Shown one piece after another: positions 706 to 5,406 of a stretch of 5,406 nt of DNA. The DNA comes from Deltaproteobacteria bacterium RBG_13_61_14. Its GTDB lineage: Bacteria; RBG-13-61-14. The stretch is from the NCBI GenBank assembly GCA_001797815.1, contig MGQK01000097.1, positions 4,683-10,088 on the forward strand, read 5' to 3'. Every line of letters starts with the position of its first letter. The stretch's first letter is position 1. The translations under genes and the position numbers were made by a program. The notes under the pieces are model-generated. The model worked only from the letters and a program-made list of their open reading frames with translations. It ran no database searches and was not told the DNA's origin.

Positions 706-937
706 GCCCAACGGCCTCGAGCTACGAAGTCCCATGCTCTTTATGGGAAGCTGCCCGGCGGAAGCAGGCAGACCAAGAAAGTTTCTCTGCCCGGCCGGCG
801 GGCCAGACAAGCCGCCCCGAAGGCACCGCCCGCCGGGTCAGCCGAAGGTCCTGGTGCCTTCACCGCACCTCCCGGGAGATCACCGGGACGATGTGCGGTG
901 CGGCGCAGGTGTCCAGGGCTTCAGCGAGTTGTTGGGC
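706..937 (-). other. attC-like recombination site of the membrane-protein cassette, unusually long
   Basis: On the minus strand it starts with R'' GCCCAAC (937-931), continues with AACTCGCTGAAGCC, which resembles the R''-spacer-L'' side of known attC sites, and ends with R' GTTGGGC (712-706). The core sites extend to a perfect 12-bp inverted repeat, GAGCCGCCCAAC at 701-712 and its complement at 931-942. Just inside R', GGGACTTCG can pair with CTGAAGCCC while leaving one unpaired T, like the extrahelical base of L''. The total length is 232 bp, well above the usual roughly 57-141 bp. The interior holds the 106-bp shared repeat (832-937), a hairpin with 9-bp arms at 795-803 and 828-836, and a small CCCAT/ATGGG hairpin nearer R'. 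It could instead be a short attC followed by an ORF-less insert. This 232-bp stretch and the flanking gap from 630 to 975 hold no credible gene. Confidence 0.65.
832..937 (-). repeat. 106-bp direct repeat, copy 1 (attC-type hairpin element)
   Basis: It matches 3811-3916 at 101 of 106 positions in the same orientation, and the last 76 bases (862-937) are identical. All five differences lie between 842 and 860. On the minus strand it folds as a nested hairpin: GAAGCCCTGG against CCAGGACCTTC, then a perfect 8-bp CACCGCAC/GTGCGGTG stem, then CCCGG/CCGGG around a short loop. The end at 931-937 is core site GCCCAAC. This is probably the left half and stem of one attC family reused by two cassettes. 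Confidence 0.85.
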
Positions 938-975
938 GGCTCTGATTTGCCAAGACGCCTTTCCAGACTCTGATT

Positions 976-1560
976 TCATGCCCATCCGTAGGGTGTTACG
1001 CTCTTGTAAGCTCGCCAAGTGAAGACAGCGATGGCGGCGATCAACGCTGCCGTCAGCCACAGCGGGAAGGGCGCCCAAACCTGCACTCCCAACATGGCGC
1101 TGGTCAGAACGACGAACAGGCAAGTGGAAGCCATACGCTTGCGCCGCAGGCGCAGTGCGCCAATGCGGGGCGCGAAGTCCGCTGGCAATGAATTACCCGC
1201 CTGGGCAAACAGTGCGTCAATCTGCGGCTGTAGGCTCAAGTGGACAAAGGACAGCAGCGCGGCAATGAACACCAGCAGCAGGAACTTTAACCCCAACGCG
1301 GGATTGGTGAGCAGTGTGCCCAACCCCTGGCCGCGTAGGAACATCAAGGCCAGACCACTGACCAGGGCAGTGGCTTGGAACACGAAGCAGGGAATCGTGC
1401 GGTTCTTGATGATATTCTCCAGGTAGGTGTCGGCACGGTCACCCAGGGGCGGCCCCAAGCGTACTCGCTGATTGACGATGACGAGGGCGTAGAAAGGCCA
1501 CGCCATCAGAATGGCGTTGACGATATGAATGACCTTGAGAATGCTGAGAAGGGTGTCCAT
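976..1560 (-). CDS. Five-helix integral membrane protein, possibly DUF2269/CopD-like
   Basis: This 194-residue protein starts at ATG 1560, with a strong AAAGGAG at 1569-1575 placed 8 nt upstream. Hydrophobic segments lie at about residues 5-29, 57-76, 89-110, 145-161 and 164-182. A basic loop RLRRKRM at 137-143 precedes the fourth and should be cytoplasmic. The first helix carries LKVIHIVNA with a histidine (residue 12), which recalls the LHI motif in helix 1 of DUF2269 and CopD-type membrane proteins. That similarity is from memory and is weak evidence. No enzyme motif or signal peptidase site is seen. Its function is unknown. It is the only gene of its cassette; the stop is 38 bp before R''. 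Upstream, TTGACC at 1613-1618 could be a -35 element, but the nearest -10-like hexamer (GATAGC) is about 20 bp away, so an own promoter is doubtful. Confidence 0.88.
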   Translation of the reverse strand: MDTLLSILKVIHIVNAILMAWPFYALVIVNQRVRLGPPLGDRADTYLENIIKNRTIPCFVFQATALVSGLALMFLRGQGLGTLLTNPALGLKFLLLVFIAALLSFVHLSLQPQIDALFAQAGNSLPADFAPRIGALRLRRKRMASTCLFVVLTSAMLGVQVWAPFPLWLTAALIAAIAVFTWRAYKSVTPYGWA

Positions 1561-1629
1561 CGTTCTCTCTCCTTTGGCCTTGTTCAGCTATCGCGCTTGA
1601 AGCAGCCGCGGAGGTCAAGATCATGAGCC

Positions 1630-1756
1630 GCCCAACGGTGGACTTCACCCCCGCGGCGGTGAACCAAAGACACCTTCGCGGGGAAGACTCACCGGGACTA
1701 CCTGAAACTTCGCCAGGGCGAGGCGGTAGCCACGTCGGCTGCAAGCCGTGTTGGGC
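1630..1756 (-). other. attC-like recombination site of the sulfurtransferase-SDR cassette
   Basis: On the minus strand R'' GCCCAAC (1756-1750) is followed by ACGGCTTGCAGCCGAC, very like the R''-L'' side of environmental cassette attC sites, and R' GTTGGGC (1636-1630) closes the element. GGTGAAGTCC just before R' can pair with the L'' side GGCTTGCAGCC and leaves an extra G unpaired in CTTGCA, the asymmetry expected of attC. At 127 bp it is of ordinary length for a chromosomal attC. R' is followed by GGCTC, giving the 12-mer GAGCCGCCCAAC at 1625-1636 on the plus strand, shared with the other two internal junctions. No ORF of note lies inside, and the SDR stop codon is 33 bp upstream of R''. Confidence 0.75.
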
Positions 1757-1789
1757 CGCCTTTGAATGAACCAGAGTGCCTTCTTTAGC

Positions 1790-2647
1790 TCACTTGCCTT
1801 CATCGGTTTTAGTTTTTAGAGTGCGAGAACTCCAGACATAGAGTTCATCTTGTTCAATTTCATCTATTCGACGAATCAATTCTGGCAAATCATCCTTGGG
1901 TCCAACCCACCGGCCAGTCAATACATCGGCTTTGCCGGAAGCGAGAAACGTGACGAGTGGGCCTGCCAACTCTAGCGGTTGCCAGCTCTGTTCTGCCCAA
2001 CCCCGTAATTCGGGAAACCACTTGCGTCCGTCGGCTGAGTCGAGGAGATGGGTCATCATCTCCGTGGGGGTGGGGCCAGTTGAGATGGCGAATACGCTGA
2101 TACCATAGTCTTTGGTTTCGCTTGCCAGAAGATGCGTGAAGCGCGTGATTGCCACTTTGGAACAGTCATAACCCGTGAGATAAGGCATGGCGGCACTTGT
2201 GAAATTGATGATCCTGCCCTTTCGGCGCGGCACCATGCGTTGCAACACGGCACGCGAGCATAGAAACGCGCCACGCAAATTCACTTCCACATCGCGCCAC
2301 CATTCGTTTGGGTCTACTTCCCAGACCGGGCCAATGGCCGTCAGGCGCCCAGCGTTGTTCACTAACAAACCGACTGAGCCTAATTGCTGTTCCACTTGGT
2401 CCACCGTCTGCTGTACGGCGGACTGGTCGCTAACATCTACGGTTATCGCAATGGCATGACCGCCATCGTTTTCAATCAGGGATACCGTTTCTGAGAGTTG
2501 GTTGTAAGACCGGGCCACTACCGCAACCGTAGCGCCAGCCTGTGCTAGTGTGCGTGCAATTTCGCGCCCGAAACCCCGGCCACCGCCGGTAACGATGGCA
2601 ACCTGACCAGCCAATTCTTGCGATTTCACTGTGGGATCAGCCTGCAT
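1790..2647 (-). CDS. Short-chain dehydrogenase/reductase (SDR), NAD(P)-dependent
   Basis: This 285-residue Rossmann-fold oxidoreductase carries the nucleotide-binding TGGGRGFG at residues 20-27, DVSD at 71-74, NNAG at 97-100, Asn123 in VNLRG, and the active-site Y160-x3-K164 (YDCSK). Ser151 is the likely catalytic serine, but it is only 9 residues before the tyrosine, where about 13 is usual, so the intervening loop is short. TGPTPTEM (190-197) replaces the usual PG-x-V/I-x-T segment. Arg46 after the second strand hints at NADP(H), but this is uncertain. The substrate is unknown. A longer reading from ATG 2695 would overlap the upstream gene by 10 bases. ATG 2647 is preferred because it has GGGAGG 7 nt upstream and places the fold at the usual distance from the N-terminus. 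It is the second gene of a two-gene operon and may act on a product linked to the sulfurtransferase, but nothing shows this directly. Confidence 0.93.
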   Translation of the reverse strand: MQADPTVKSQELAGQVAIVTGGGRGFGREIARTLAQAGATVAVVARSYNQLSETVSLIENDGGHAIAITVDVSDQSAVQQTVDQVEQQLGSVGLLVNNAGRLTAIGPVWEVDPNEWWRDVEVNLRGAFLCSRAVLQRMVPRRKGRIINFTSAAMPYLTGYDCSKVAITRFTHLLASETKDYGISVFAISTGPTPTEMMTHLLDSADGRKWFPELRGWAEQSWQPLELAGPLVTFLASGKADVLTGRWVGPKDDLPELIRRIDEIEQDELYVWSSRTLKTKTDEGK

Positions 2648-2654
2648 GGGTTTT

Positions 2655-2660
2655 CCTCCC
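2655..2660 (-). promoter_or_regulatory. Ribosome binding site that decides the SDR start
   Basis: GGGAGG on the minus strand, inside GAGGGAGG, lies 7 nt before ATG 2647. The alternative ATG at 2695 sits within the last codons of the sulfurtransferase gene and has no comparable purine run at the right distance. The site therefore favours the shorter protein and a 38-bp intergenic gap. Confidence 0.75.
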
Positions 2661-2685
2661 TCGAGATAGGGTTGCGTGAGCGGCC

Positions 2686-3540
2686 CTAGCTCCATTTCTC
2701 AATGGGCGTATCTGCTAAGTTCCCCCACTCCGCCCAGGAACGGTCATACTCGCGCACATTAGGGTAGCCAAGCAGTTGCGTTAGCGCAAACCACATATGC
2801 GTGGACAGTCCGCCGCGTACGCAGTAGGTCACAATATTCTTGTCAGGCGTGATACCTTTTTCGGAGAACAGTGCCCGCAACTCCTCAACTGACTTGAACG
2901 TGCCATCGGTTCGTGTTGTGGGAGTTTGCCAGCCTTGAAATTGCCCATCGGCATCCGTAATAGGAGCCGCTGGGACATTGACTGCGGTGGGAATACGCCC
3001 GCCGCGTTGCATGCCTGCGGTGTTTTCACCCGTATACATATCTACCGGGCGAGCATCCACTATCATCTGCTGCATCTGCCCGATTACGCTAATAATGTGG
3101 TCTTTGTCGGCGCGGAGATCCCAATTCGGCTCTTGAGCAACATACTGCTTACGCTGTACCCTAGGCTTCTCGACACTCAGTGAACGGCCTTCTGCCAACC
3201 ACTTCTGCCGTCCGCCATCGAGCAGGCGTATGTCTGCGTGTCCATATACCTTGAGCATCCAGAACGCCATAACGGCAATCAAGTTGCTCAGTCCGCCATA
3301 AATGACAACTGTGTCGCTGTTAGCGATACCCGCATTCGACAACATGGCTTCGACTTGTGCTTTGTCGGCGAGGTGCTGGAAATCGGATAGACCCCAACCT
3401 GCGACTGCACCGGGAATATGTCCCGATTCGTACTCGGACGTATTCACGCCGACTTCCAGAAAACGGACATTCGAGTCATTCAGATGGTCGGCAACCCATT
3501 GGGTGCCTACAAGAACTTCAGGACGAGCGTAAGTGGACAT
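2686..3540 (-). CDS. Tandem-domain rhodanese-type sulfurtransferase (thiosulfate/3-mercaptopyruvate)
   Basis: This 284-residue protein has the usual length for a two-domain sulfurtransferase moving sulfane sulfur from thiosulfate or 3-mercaptopyruvate to a thiophilic acceptor. The N-terminal domain (about 8-125) contains RFLEV, ESGHIPGAVAG (38-48) and RLLDGGRQKW (105-114) but no catalytic cysteine: the equivalent loop reads YGGLSN (81-86). The C-terminal domain (about 150-280) contains VDARPVDMYTGE, RIPTAVNVP and the active-site loop from Cys240 (YCVRGGLST, 239-247), then LLGYPNVREYDRSWAEWGN (256-274). The loop has the length seen in SseA-like proteins but not the textbook CRKGVT or CGSGVT, so donor preference is open. 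It is cytoplasmic, with no signal peptide. A TTG at 3558 would add six residues, but ATG 3540 has AAAGGAG 6 nt upstream and is preferred. It is the first gene of the operon; a promoter candidate lies at 3686-3714. Confidence 0.94.
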   Translation of the reverse strand: MSTYARPEVLVGTQWVADHLNDSNVRFLEVGVNTSEYESGHIPGAVAGWGLSDFQHLADKAQVEAMLSNAGIANSDTVVIYGGLSNLIAVMAFWMLKVYGHADIRLLDGGRQKWLAEGRSLSVEKPRVQRKQYVAQEPNWDLRADKDHIISVIGQMQQMIVDARPVDMYTGENTAGMQRGGRIPTAVNVPAAPITDADGQFQGWQTPTTRTDGTFKSVEELRALFSEKGITPDKNIVTYCVRGGLSTHMWFALTQLLGYPNVREYDRSWAEWGNLADTPIEKWS

Positions 3541-3685
3541 GATATTCTCCTTTCGCAAACTGAAGGATGGCTATTGAATGTGCGACAGTGAGCCGCCCAA
3601 CTAGTGATTGGACAGCGCCCTGGCGGTGTAGTAGGCGGGGAAAGTGGAGGGGAGCTGTGGGGAGACGGCTGCCTCAAGTCGCTCT

Positions 3686-3714
3686 AGTCTAGCTCAGGGC
3701 GAGCTCAAGGGCAA
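3686..3714 (-). promoter_or_regulatory. Candidate sigma70-type promoter for the sulfurtransferase-SDR operon
   Basis: The minus strand reads TTGCCC (3714-3709), a 17-bp spacer, then TAGACT (3691-3686). Each hexamer keeps the most conserved bases of the vegetative consensus. Transcription would start near 3679 and give a leader of about 140 nt to ATG 3540, crossing core site 3595-3601. The promoter therefore sits in the tail of the preceding cassette rather than in the operon's own cassette. Confidence 0.55.
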
Positions 3715-3774
3715 GCTGTAATTGCTGGTTTGCGTACGCTGTTGCGGGCAACGACCCACCCATTCTCGCGCATT

Positions 3775-3811
3775 CTGGCGGGCAAGAGACTACTGACTCT
3801 CCGCCCGCCAG
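3775..3811 (-). repeat. GC-rich hairpin with perfect 9-bp stem
   Basis: CTGGCGGGC (3775-3783) and GCCCGCCAG (3803-3811) form a perfect stem, and AGAG/CTCT can extend it inside. The corresponding tail near 800 carries CCGGCGGGC (795-803) and GCCCGCCGG (828-836), where one pair has changed on both sides. No run of T follows on either strand, so it is a poor match to an intrinsic terminator. Confidence 0.7.
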
Positions 3812-3916
3812 CCGGGTCAGTCGAAGGCCCTGGGGCTCTCACCGCACCTCCCGGGAGATCACCGGGACGATGTGCGGTGCGGCGCAGGTGTCCAGGGCTT
3901 CAGCGAGTTGTTGGGC
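3811..3916 (-). repeat. 106-bp direct repeat, copy 2 (attC-type hairpin element)
   Basis: Same element as 832-937; bases 3841-3916 are identical to 862-937. In this copy the outer stem is better matched: GAAGCCCTGG faces CCAGGGCCTTC with one bulged G. The inner CACCGCAC/GTGCGGTG stem is perfect. It begins at the R'' core site and follows the higA gene, whereas copy 1 follows the unrelated membrane-protein gene. Confidence 0.85.
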
Positions 3917-3927
3917 TGCGGGTCACC

Positions 3928-4248
3928 TCAGCGCGAGGAAGGAGCCGTGTGCCGATGTGGCCGAATGCCCGTGAGAACGCTGGCCTCCGTCCGCCGCGCA
4001 CGATACAGATCCCAGCGCAGCTGGAGATTCATCCAGTAGCCCTCGGTGGTGCCGAAGTACTTCGCCAACCTCAAGGCTGTCGCAGGCGTGATCCCCCGCC
4101 GCGCGTTCACGATCTCATTGACGCGCTGGTACGGCATGTGGAGAGCGCCTGCCAGTTCTCGCTGGCTGACCTCCATCGGCTTGAGGAACTCCTCAAGCAG
4201 CATCTCACCCGGATGGGTGGGCTCTCTGTGTGTGGGAACACGCACCAT
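3928..4248 (-). CDS. higA: HigA-family antitoxin, HTH_3 DNA-binding protein
   Basis: This 106-residue protein starts with the family signature HPGEMLLEEFLKPMEVSQRELA (residues 12-33) and continues as an XRE/HTH_3 helix-turn-helix (about 25-60), with PYQRVNEIVNARRGITPATA as the recognition helix and following turn. FGTTEGYWMNLQLRWDLYRA (65-84) is also typical of HigA. It would bind and neutralise HigB and repress the operon promoter. The ATG at 4248 has GGGGAGG at 4254-4260, 5 nt upstream. The gap from the toxin gene is 24 bp, in toxin-first order as in other higBA operons. About 20 extra C-terminal residues (GIRPHRHTAPSSR end) run almost to the attC R'' site, 11 bp past the stop, and may have been acquired at the cassette junction. 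Confidence 0.94.
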   Translation of the reverse strand: MVRVPTHREPTHPGEMLLEEFLKPMEVSQRELAGALHMPYQRVNEIVNARRGITPATALRLAKYFGTTEGYWMNLQLRWDLYRARRTEASVLTGIRPHRHTAPSSR

Positions 4249-4272
4249 GTGTACCTCCCCTATCCTCGCACC

Positions 4273-4572
4273 CTACGACTTGTGATAGTCGACGATCTCG
4301 ACCTCTTCAGGCCCTTGCGGTGTCCAGACGAAACAGATCCGATACTGTTCGTTGATACGGATGCTGTGTTGGCCTGTCCGATGTCCGCGCAGGGGCTCAA
4401 GTCGATTGCCCGGCGGGACTCCAAGATCCTTCAGCTCCTGAGCCGAGTCGATCTGATCGAGCTTCCTTCGGGCGACTGCCCGGAGCCGCTGCGGACACAG
4501 TTTTCGCGCGGCAGCCGAATTCACACCGTTGAAGACGTCTTCGGTGGCCTGGTTGTGGAAGCTCTCGATCAC
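4273..4572 (-). CDS. higB: HigB-family toxin (RelE-like ribosome-dependent mRNA endonuclease)
   Basis: This 99-residue protein carries the HigB signature along its length: PPGNRLEPLRGHRTGQHSIR (53-72), INEQYRICFVW (73-83) and VEIVDYHKS at the C-terminus. The basic and aromatic residues that act in RelE/HigB mRNA cleavage are present (Arg65, Arg72, Arg78, Tyr96-His97). The N-terminal MIESFHNQATEDVFNGV is shared with this group. The length is typical and nothing suggests inactivation. The start is GTG at 4572. It has no Shine-Dalgarno sequence; the -10 element ends just 6 bp before it, so the message is probably leaderless. Toxin-antitoxin pairs are common in chromosomal cassette arrays, where they are thought to discourage loss of the array. 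HigA downstream is its partner. Confidence 0.94.
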   Translation of the reverse strand: MIESFHNQATEDVFNGVNSAAARKLCPQRLRAVARRKLDQIDSAQELKDLGVPPGNRLEPLRGHRTGQHSIRINEQYRICFVWTPQGPEEVEIVDYHKS

Positions 4573-4578
4573 GGCTAC

Positions 4579-4607
4579 ATGATAACACGGCTACCATGCT
4601 ATGGCAA
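4579..4607 (-). promoter_or_regulatory. Promoter of higBA, likely giving a leaderless mRNA
   Basis: The minus strand has TTGCCA (4607-4602), a spacer of exactly 17 bp, and TATCAT (4584-4579). Six bases separate the -10 from the GTG start of higB, so a usual start point falls on the G of GTG. TAGCATGGTAGCC in the spacer holds the half-repeats TAGCAT and GGTAGC, which might be part of a HigA operator; this last point is weak. Confidence 0.7.
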
Positions 4608-4633
4608 GCCCAAGCAAACGAGCACCACCCGCT

Positions 4634-4640
4634 GCCCAAC
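4634..4640 (-). other. Outermost core site (GTTGGGC), 5' edge of the cassette array
   Basis: GTTGGGC on the minus strand opens the higBA cassette and continues as GTTGGGCAGCGG, complementary at 11 of 12 positions to the sequence CCGCAGCCCAAC that ends the same gene module (3910-3921). Upstream no matching R'' and no paired L boxes are apparent. The nearest RYYYAAC is ATCCAAC at 4895-4901, inside a coding remnant. This could be an attI fragment, a decayed attC, or a secondary insertion site. Confidence 0.5.
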
Positions 4641-4648
4641 TGGTGATT

Positions 4649-4963
4649 CTACGCACTTTGACCAACGGCGGCACCCAGCAGCCGAGCTAGCTCCTCAGAA
4701 TGCGCCGGGTCAGGCACGTACAGCCCCTTCCTCACTAGCGAAGAATACCGCCGCGAGAATCCCGTGGCCTCTGCAGTCACCATGATTGACAGGCGCTTCA
4801 GGCGTGGCAAGATCTCCCGGTCAACACGGTCCTTCTCCGACGCAAGATCCAAATCCTGCTTCTCCCACTCCGCCCGTTCGGCCCCTGGGCGGGTGTTGGA
4901 TACTCCCCGATTCCTTGCCGCTCTCAGGCCAAGTCCGCGGCGCGTCCCTGCCAGCCTTGCACG
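4649..4963 (-). pseudogene. Remnant of a hypothetical protein with helix-turn-helix-like C-terminus
   Basis: The frame is open from just after a TAG at 4964-4966 to TAG at 4649-4651, 104 codons, but has no ATG or GTG near its beginning. The first usable start is TTG at 4852, giving 67 residues with no clear ribosome site. From memory, RNRGVSNTRPGAERAEWEKQ followed by REILPRLKRLSIMVTAEATGF and SRRYSSLVRKGLYVPDPAHS resembles the C-terminal half of a family of bacterial hypothetical proteins that has an ATGLS-x-RY-x3-IRRG-x-x-VPHPRHW pattern. Here HPRHW has become DPAHS. Similarity extends upstream of the TTG, so the gene looks truncated or interrupted at its 5' end. Its natural stop is retained 8 bp before the core site at 4634-4640. 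The family assignment is uncertain and its function is unknown. Confidence 0.5.
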
Positions 4964-4969
4964 CTAAGC

Positions 4970-4983
4970 GCCAGGCGCCTGGC
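4970..4983. repeat. 14-bp perfect palindrome
   Basis: GCCAGGCGCCTGGC reads the same on both strands. It lies between the gene remnant and the plus-strand promoter, in a stretch (4964-5059) where I see no gene. No T run follows on either side, so it is not an obvious terminator. It could be a protein-binding site or chance in GC-rich DNA. Confidence 0.4.
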
Positions 4984-5059
4984 ACCGGAACGGCCTGCCA
5001 TTCACATGACCGAGGCCGGTGACGCTTTTCTCGGACTCTAACAGCGACTCCCCTCCAGG

Positions 5060-5088
5060 TTGACATCACGCCTCCGCCCCTCTATACT
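5060..5088 (+). promoter_or_regulatory. Near-consensus sigma70 promoter, likely leaderless
   Basis: TTGACA (5060-5065) is a perfect -35, the spacer is 17 bp and TATACT (5083-5088) differs from TATAAT by one base. The ATG at 5096 begins 7 bp after the -10, so the expected transcription start is at or next to the A of ATG. No Shine-Dalgarno sequence could fit in such a message. Confidence 0.82.
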
Positions 5089-5095
5089 GCGCCGG

Positions 5096-5406
5096 ATGGA
5101 CGTCCAGGCGATCCTGGTCATCGCCGCGATCTTGATCGGCGTCTGCGTGTTGACGCTGCGCTCGGAGCCGCGCCGGCGCCGCACCATCCTGCTTCTGGTC
5201 CCCCTTCCGGCAGCCGCACTTCTGCTGCGCTGGGCGGCCTACCGTCGCGCCTGGCCGGAACTGGCCGCCGCCGCCGGGCTGGCCGCCGCCGGCGTCCTGT
5301 TGTGGTGGCTCGTCCTCGGCCGCCGCCTGCCGCCGGCCAGCAACAGCCCCGTTCGCGTGTGGAACAACAAGGAGGAGCGTTACGAACCTCCGGACGATCC
5401 TGCTCG
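5096..5406 (+). CDS. Small GC-rich membrane protein of unknown function, 3' end outside window
   Basis: The ATG at 5096 opens a frame that stays open for 103 codons to the window end. Three hydrophobic stretches are visible at about residues 4-21, 31-46 and 56-75, separated by the basic segments RSEPRRRR (22-29) and YRRAWPE (49-55). They are followed by a polar tail with VRVWNNKEERYEPPDD (86-101), predicted to be cytoplasmic. I do not recognise the family. Codon third positions are almost all G or C, with runs of GCC, unlike the sulfurtransferase and SDR genes, which fits host backbone DNA next to acquired cassettes. The start is supported by the strong promoter 7 bp upstream rather than by a ribosome binding site. 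It diverges from the minus-strand array. Confidence 0.7.
   Translation, partial: MDVQAILVIAAILIGVCVLTLRSEPRRRRTILLLVPLPAAALLLRWAAYRRAWPELAAAAGLAAAGVLLWWLVLGRRLPPASNSPVRVWNNKEERYEPPDDPA

Follow-up and report, generated by a model that had tools for sequence, protein, structure and literature searches.

The attC sites of sedentary chromosomal integrons, such as the VCR of Vibrio cholerae, are imperfect palindromes bounded by RYYYAAC and GTTRRRY cores, with one site per cassette gene, a branched variable terminal structure in the long sites, lengths of 57-141 bp and high relatedness within an array, about 80% in chromosomal integrons (PMC5371416). The folded bottom strand of the attC is cut by the integron integrase, IntI (PMC8946536, PMC5371416). 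Clustered attC sites are also found as integrase-less cassette arrays, or CALINs (PMC9024848, PMC8618304), and integrons are on record in Chloroflexota (PMC8618304), a phylum not among the 11 taxa for which attC covariance models have been made (PMC8352920); we found no description of a Chloroflexota attC type in the literature searched. The locus described here shares the cores, the imperfect palindrome, the one-site-per-gene arrangement, the branched terminal structure in long sites and the relatedness within the array with sedentary chromosomal integrons, has seven clustered attC sites as a CALIN does, and carries what appears to be a lineage-associated family that a covariance model recognises. 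It differs in that five of its sites (E2-E5 and E7, 170-322 bp) are longer and contain self-contained hairpins in their arms, and in that relatedness is graded, at 61-94% between pairs and often in one half only. It adds a member to the integron system already known and is no new kind of element.

The window, which is the whole 5,406-base stretch analysed, covers bases 4683-10088 of a 13,961-base contig (L011, contig C97 of its genome bin), and positions below are those of the window unless the contig is named. It contains nine GCCCAAC cores against 1.2 expected, and paired core ends GCCCAAC/GTTGGGC at 706/931 and 3595/3910 delimit sites of 232 and 322 bp. Seven putative attC sites (E1-E7) were counted on the contig, each after a different minus-strand gene. 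Four lie upstream of the window (contig positions 1397-1510 for E1, 2509-2686 for E2, 3217-3376 for E3 and 4303-4491 for E4), and three are bounded by cores inside it, all read on the minus strand: E5 at 706-937 (232 bp, the site of the cassette of ORF 976-1560, with R'' at 937-931 and R' at 712-706 in gene orientation), E6 at 1630-1756 (127 bp) and E7 at 3595-3916 (322 bp, the site of the higBA cassette). A core pair of the RYYYAAC ... GTTRRRY form bounds each site, with a variant core, GTCAGGC, in E1; there is one attC per cassette gene or gene pair, and all genes share one orientation. E1 and E6 fall inside the 57-141 bp range, which is an observed range and no definition, while E2-E5 (170-232 bp) and E7 lie above it. 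The last core (4634-4640, minus strand), of the R' type and complementary to the 3910-side core across higBA, marks the proximal boundary of the array. We considered 4634-4901 as an eighth attC and dropped it, as its left core alone fits and 4641-4901 is without a relative.

E2-E5 can be aligned along both arms and were used to build a model, R1, which scores E1 at 14.8 bits (a weak match) and E7 at 43.7 bits (E 1.7e-9). On this comparison E1-E5 and half of E7 are assigned to one predicted attC family. E5 is a training member of R1 and is independently recovered by a second model, R2 (E 6.7e-7). Its fold is more stable than expected (z = -3.9); the fold energies of E2, E4 and E7 are no lower than those of shuffled sequences. 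Complementarity between L'' and L', with the extra L'' base, can be seen by eye in shorter relatives from Anaerolineae and is blurred by inserted hairpins in E2-E5, and E7 has no recognisable L' partner. The apparent extra-base positions in E2-E5 would have the sites in the opposite orientation, a reading we dropped, the same model strand following the genes in two related genomes (Anaerolineae bacterium W167 and G376, below).

The cassette genes, all on the minus strand, encode a MazF/PemK-like toxin with a small partner ORF, a SnoaL-like protein, an alpha/beta hydrolase, a methyltransferase cut at the window edge (1-629; contig 4529-5311), a 194-aa probable membrane protein (976-1560), a short-chain dehydrogenase (SDR, 1790-2695) with a rhodanese-like sulfurtransferase (2686-3558), and HigBA, comprising the helix-turn-helix antitoxin higA (3928-4248) and the RelE-like toxin higB (4273-4572). 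The SDR and rhodanese genes form a two-gene cassette, as do both toxin-antitoxin pairs. Toxin-antitoxin cassettes are frequent in sedentary chromosomal integrons, and this array has two that are toxin-antitoxin-like, the MazF/PemK-like cassette (L011:1545-2182) and HigBA (window 3928-4572).

In an integron the two ends of one cassette, rather than those of the linear site, once formed a single site. Across each gene the core and the bases following it agree at 83 of 112 positions, a score equalled by 16 of 5040 permutations. When the circular forms were rebuilt, the number of expected terminal pairs on the bottom strand rose from 3.4 to 12.4 in E2, from 1.8 to 11.1 in E3, from 5.6 to 10.9 in E4 and from 3.8 to 11.8 in E7; E5 is closed in either form, and E6, the weak case, is unchanged by circularisation. 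In these predicted folds circularisation thus restores the terminal stem of four sites, as expected of true cassette ends.

The element that drew attention to the locus is a 106-bp repeat at 832-937 and 3811-3916. As the initial annotation had it, the copies match at 101 of 106 bases (the mismatches being at 842, 849, 855, 858 and 859), and they are identical at one end, over the final 78 bases and not the 76 first counted. Similarity extends over 115 nt at 94% identity (826-940 and 3805-3919) and ends there, the flanks being unrelated, so that the match is far above chance and belongs to no larger duplication. On the minus strand the hairpin fold of the first copy has z = -3.4, with none of 200 shuffles equally stable, and that of the second z = -2.0. 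The copies follow, on the minus strand, ORF 976-1560 and higA (3928-4248), the gene order given in the annotation; its membrane-protein gene is membrane-like, with no Pfam or NCBIfam match. The view that the element as a whole ends the two cassettes did not hold, since each copy is merely half of a larger site: on the plus strand it makes up the right-hand part of both E5 and E7, and in gene orientation the gene-proximal half, which comprises the R''-L'' arm and part of the variable terminal structure. Only two full-length copies occur in the bin; a third, upstream of the window at contig 4429-4490, is missing precisely the inner 51 bp. An Rfam search returned nothing relevant.

We consider it very probable, from these sequence comparisons, that the repeat is the gene-proximal half of two attC sites in a CALIN of an Anaerolineae-related (Chloroflexota) bacterium. 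Each cassette would consist of one or more genes and an attC, the folded single strand of which would be cut by the integron integrase at G/TT in the core and joined to another core, cassettes moving as circles. The array would have been assembled by an IntI acting in trans or by one since lost, and its sites would resemble one another because a single attC family is shared by cassettes that were assembled in the same lineage. The sites presumably recombine, and the half common to E5 and E7 would have come to both from a single recent source. A long variable terminal structure makes for poor extrusion from double-stranded DNA, so that E5 and E7 may be slow recombination sites.

No IntI was found on the contig or in the bin, where the integron-integrase model scores highest on XerD and XerC. 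A CALIN is a cluster of two or more attC sites with no IntI; a complete integron has IntI and attI beside the first cassette, and at the corresponding proximal end here chromosomal genes follow the last core at 4634-4640. The array is therefore a CALIN. An IntI may exist elsewhere in the true genome, since the contig ends on the distal side of the array and the bin is probably not the genome it comes from.

With 78 bases identical, the halves of E5 and E7 seem to share a recent origin, for which copying of one attC and gene conversion would both account on these data. The distal end of E7 is chimeric or decayed, and among the loci examined nothing is related to its distal half (3595-3810), whose last bases (CCCAACTAGTGATT) are similar to those at the array boundary at 4634 (CCCAACTGGTGATT). 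One account of the 106-115 bp held in common is homologous exchange between attC sites, by gene conversion or a site-joining deletion, as opposed to a common origin of the two cassettes; part of an unrelated attC in E7 would have been overwritten by an E5-type half, its distal half surviving. It would explain why E7 is E5-like in its gene-proximal half only, why identity is complete beside the core (78/78) and fades inward, and why E4 and E5 differ more, even though E4 is the closer whole-site relative (83% over 158 nt). The common stretch begins, however, exactly at the R'' core, as it would with a common attC, and further in E7 is weakly E4-like (69% over 74 nt), which fits a diverged whole site. 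We judge such an exchange quite possible, at a little under an even chance.

The predicted attC family is not confined to this contig. Among 84,980 species genomes the L'-R' pattern occurs on two contigs only, both of Anaerolineae bacterium W167, on which R1 locates six and four sites respectively (E up to 0.06), every one of them on the same strand as the cassette genes; W167 has attC arrays on at least three contigs (L038, L039) and no IntI above the cut-off. The exact 32-base repeat core has no match in the same 84,980 genomes, the 18-base core and the L'-R' pattern none in viral contigs, and plasmid and phage collections gave short chance matches or nothing. Across the class Anaerolineae, R1 matches at E <= 0.01 in 13 of 298 genomes, with sites after different genes, a count that understates the attC sites because few candidates were scored per genome. 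Some of the weak matches in the 13 seem to be due to chance (L055 has the look of coding sequence, and L054 is partial). R2, trained on 13 sites that are mostly shorter and include E1 and E3, recovers E2, E4 and E5, on none of which it was trained, at E values no higher than 1e-6. In G376 (L080), first-type sites at 8645-8776, 7156-7287 and 5470-5601 each lie behind a minus-strand gene, and the gene next to them, on the other strand, is a genuine IntI (482.7 bits). By these matches the G376 locus is a complete integron bearing this attC type. Several repeats of the GTTGG type between its IntI and first cassette (about 9680-9865) make that stretch a candidate attI. In G146 a family attC site is 600 bp away from an IntI fragment (L082, G146:C474, 1677-2726), and this locus is perhaps a CALIN formed through integrase loss.

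E6 is missed by both models and matches a site in G282 at 76% over 134 nt. The G282 relative has a cassette gene on either side, its array contains a first-type site as well, and the genome has an IntI on another contig. The initial annotation had read 1630-1756 as a different attC and thus two families as mixed in one array; this reading stands, and by sequence the mixing of two predicted types recurs and is not peculiar to this locus. Its proposal of a lineage-specific family is supported in so far as the sites belong to a lineage-associated attC family, with related sites after other genes in Anaerolineae. The many copies it looked for in the rest of the genome are not there: the bin has none outside the contig (R1 matches on its contigs C74 and C44 lack cores and were dismissed), and 98 relatives of the bin by DNA gave no match off the contig.

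The lack of further copies in the bin is probably due to misbinning of the contig. To the right of the array lie genes for a HAD hydrolase, a CoA-transferase-like protein, an S41 peptidase and a Zn peptidase, collinear with W167 at 52-69% identity; in W167 a divergent mutL-like gene precedes HAD and there is no array at that point. With its flank syntenic with W167 and the XerD of the bin not close to that of W167, the contig is probably an Anaerolineae contig. The alternative is that the contig is rightly placed in the bin, the host lineage having received both array and flank horizontally from an Anaerolineae-type source; in its favour, the bin is rated 95% complete and 0.5% contaminated. 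We think this alternative unlikely, since four consecutive flank genes are collinear with W167, the Zn peptidase is 71% identical to that of W167 and 50% identical or absent in two genomes of the same order as the bin, and the bin XerD is 52% identical to that of a same-order genome against 35% for W167. Two further observations concern the array borders. The chromosomal segment to the right of the array (L011:9681-10029; window 4999-5347) is 91% identical to L011:1-343 at the left contig end, so that direct copies of about 345 bp flank the array on both sides; they are too diverged for a recent target duplication. A 67-aa minus-strand ORF with no family match (window 4649-4852) lies at the array boundary and is perhaps the remnant of a gene invaded by the array.

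The arms of the predicted sites contain hairpins of two kinds. A 51-nt hairpin is nested in E5 (861-911) and E7 (3840-3890), both read from the minus strand, and is absent from E4, whose right arm is present minus the inner 51 bp common to E5 and E7. A smaller hairpin, of 23 nt, appears as an insertion in the L' arm when E3 is compared with shorter Anaerolineae sites, and versions of it are found in L' and L'' arms in the contig and in W167, including the L' arm of E5 (725-747, minus strand; CCCATAAAGAGCATGGGACTTCG). Over 16 versions 93.8% of cells pair, a percentage inflated by choosing the sequences partly by stem and by eye, and 17 cells change on both sides, a level of covariation reached by none of 500 shuffles and no slid control. 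We regard it as a new detail that these attC sites have a small, covarying hairpin in one arm or in both, and that E5 and E7 also have the nested 51-nt hairpin, as judged from the predicted stems. These insertions could also be small mobile or repeated palindromes (REP/MITE-like) that entered attC sites, the common element then reflecting their spread and not attC descent. Both the E3 insertion and the similar hairpins of the L' and L'' arms here and in W167 would suit such an origin, as would the absence of the 51-nt hairpin from E4, but every clear copy in the 258 kb of loci falls within an attC site (a weak test, these loci being attC-rich) and the common 106 bp extends beyond the hairpin to take in the attC core and the L'' arm; we find it improbable. 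It is conceivable, if doubtful, that Anaerolineae attC sites grow by arm hairpins, the small module on either side first and then the 51-nt one, that one grown half was joined to two unrelated genes, and that the modules tune folding or mark attC acquisition. A simple segmental duplication of the locus, which the initial annotation had itself raised and which the mere two full-length copies in the bin would fit, is scarcely credible given that similarity ends at 115 nt with no duplicated flank, the adjoining genes are unrelated and diverged sister sites follow other genes.

Why the attC sites of one chromosomal array look alike, and how a gene first acquires an attC, are unsettled, and two unrelated genes with a near-identical attC half, together with sister sites that lack one hairpin, provide a concrete case for comparison. 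An integron contig can, moreover, be binned with the wrong genome, which matters where cassettes serve to assign hosts.
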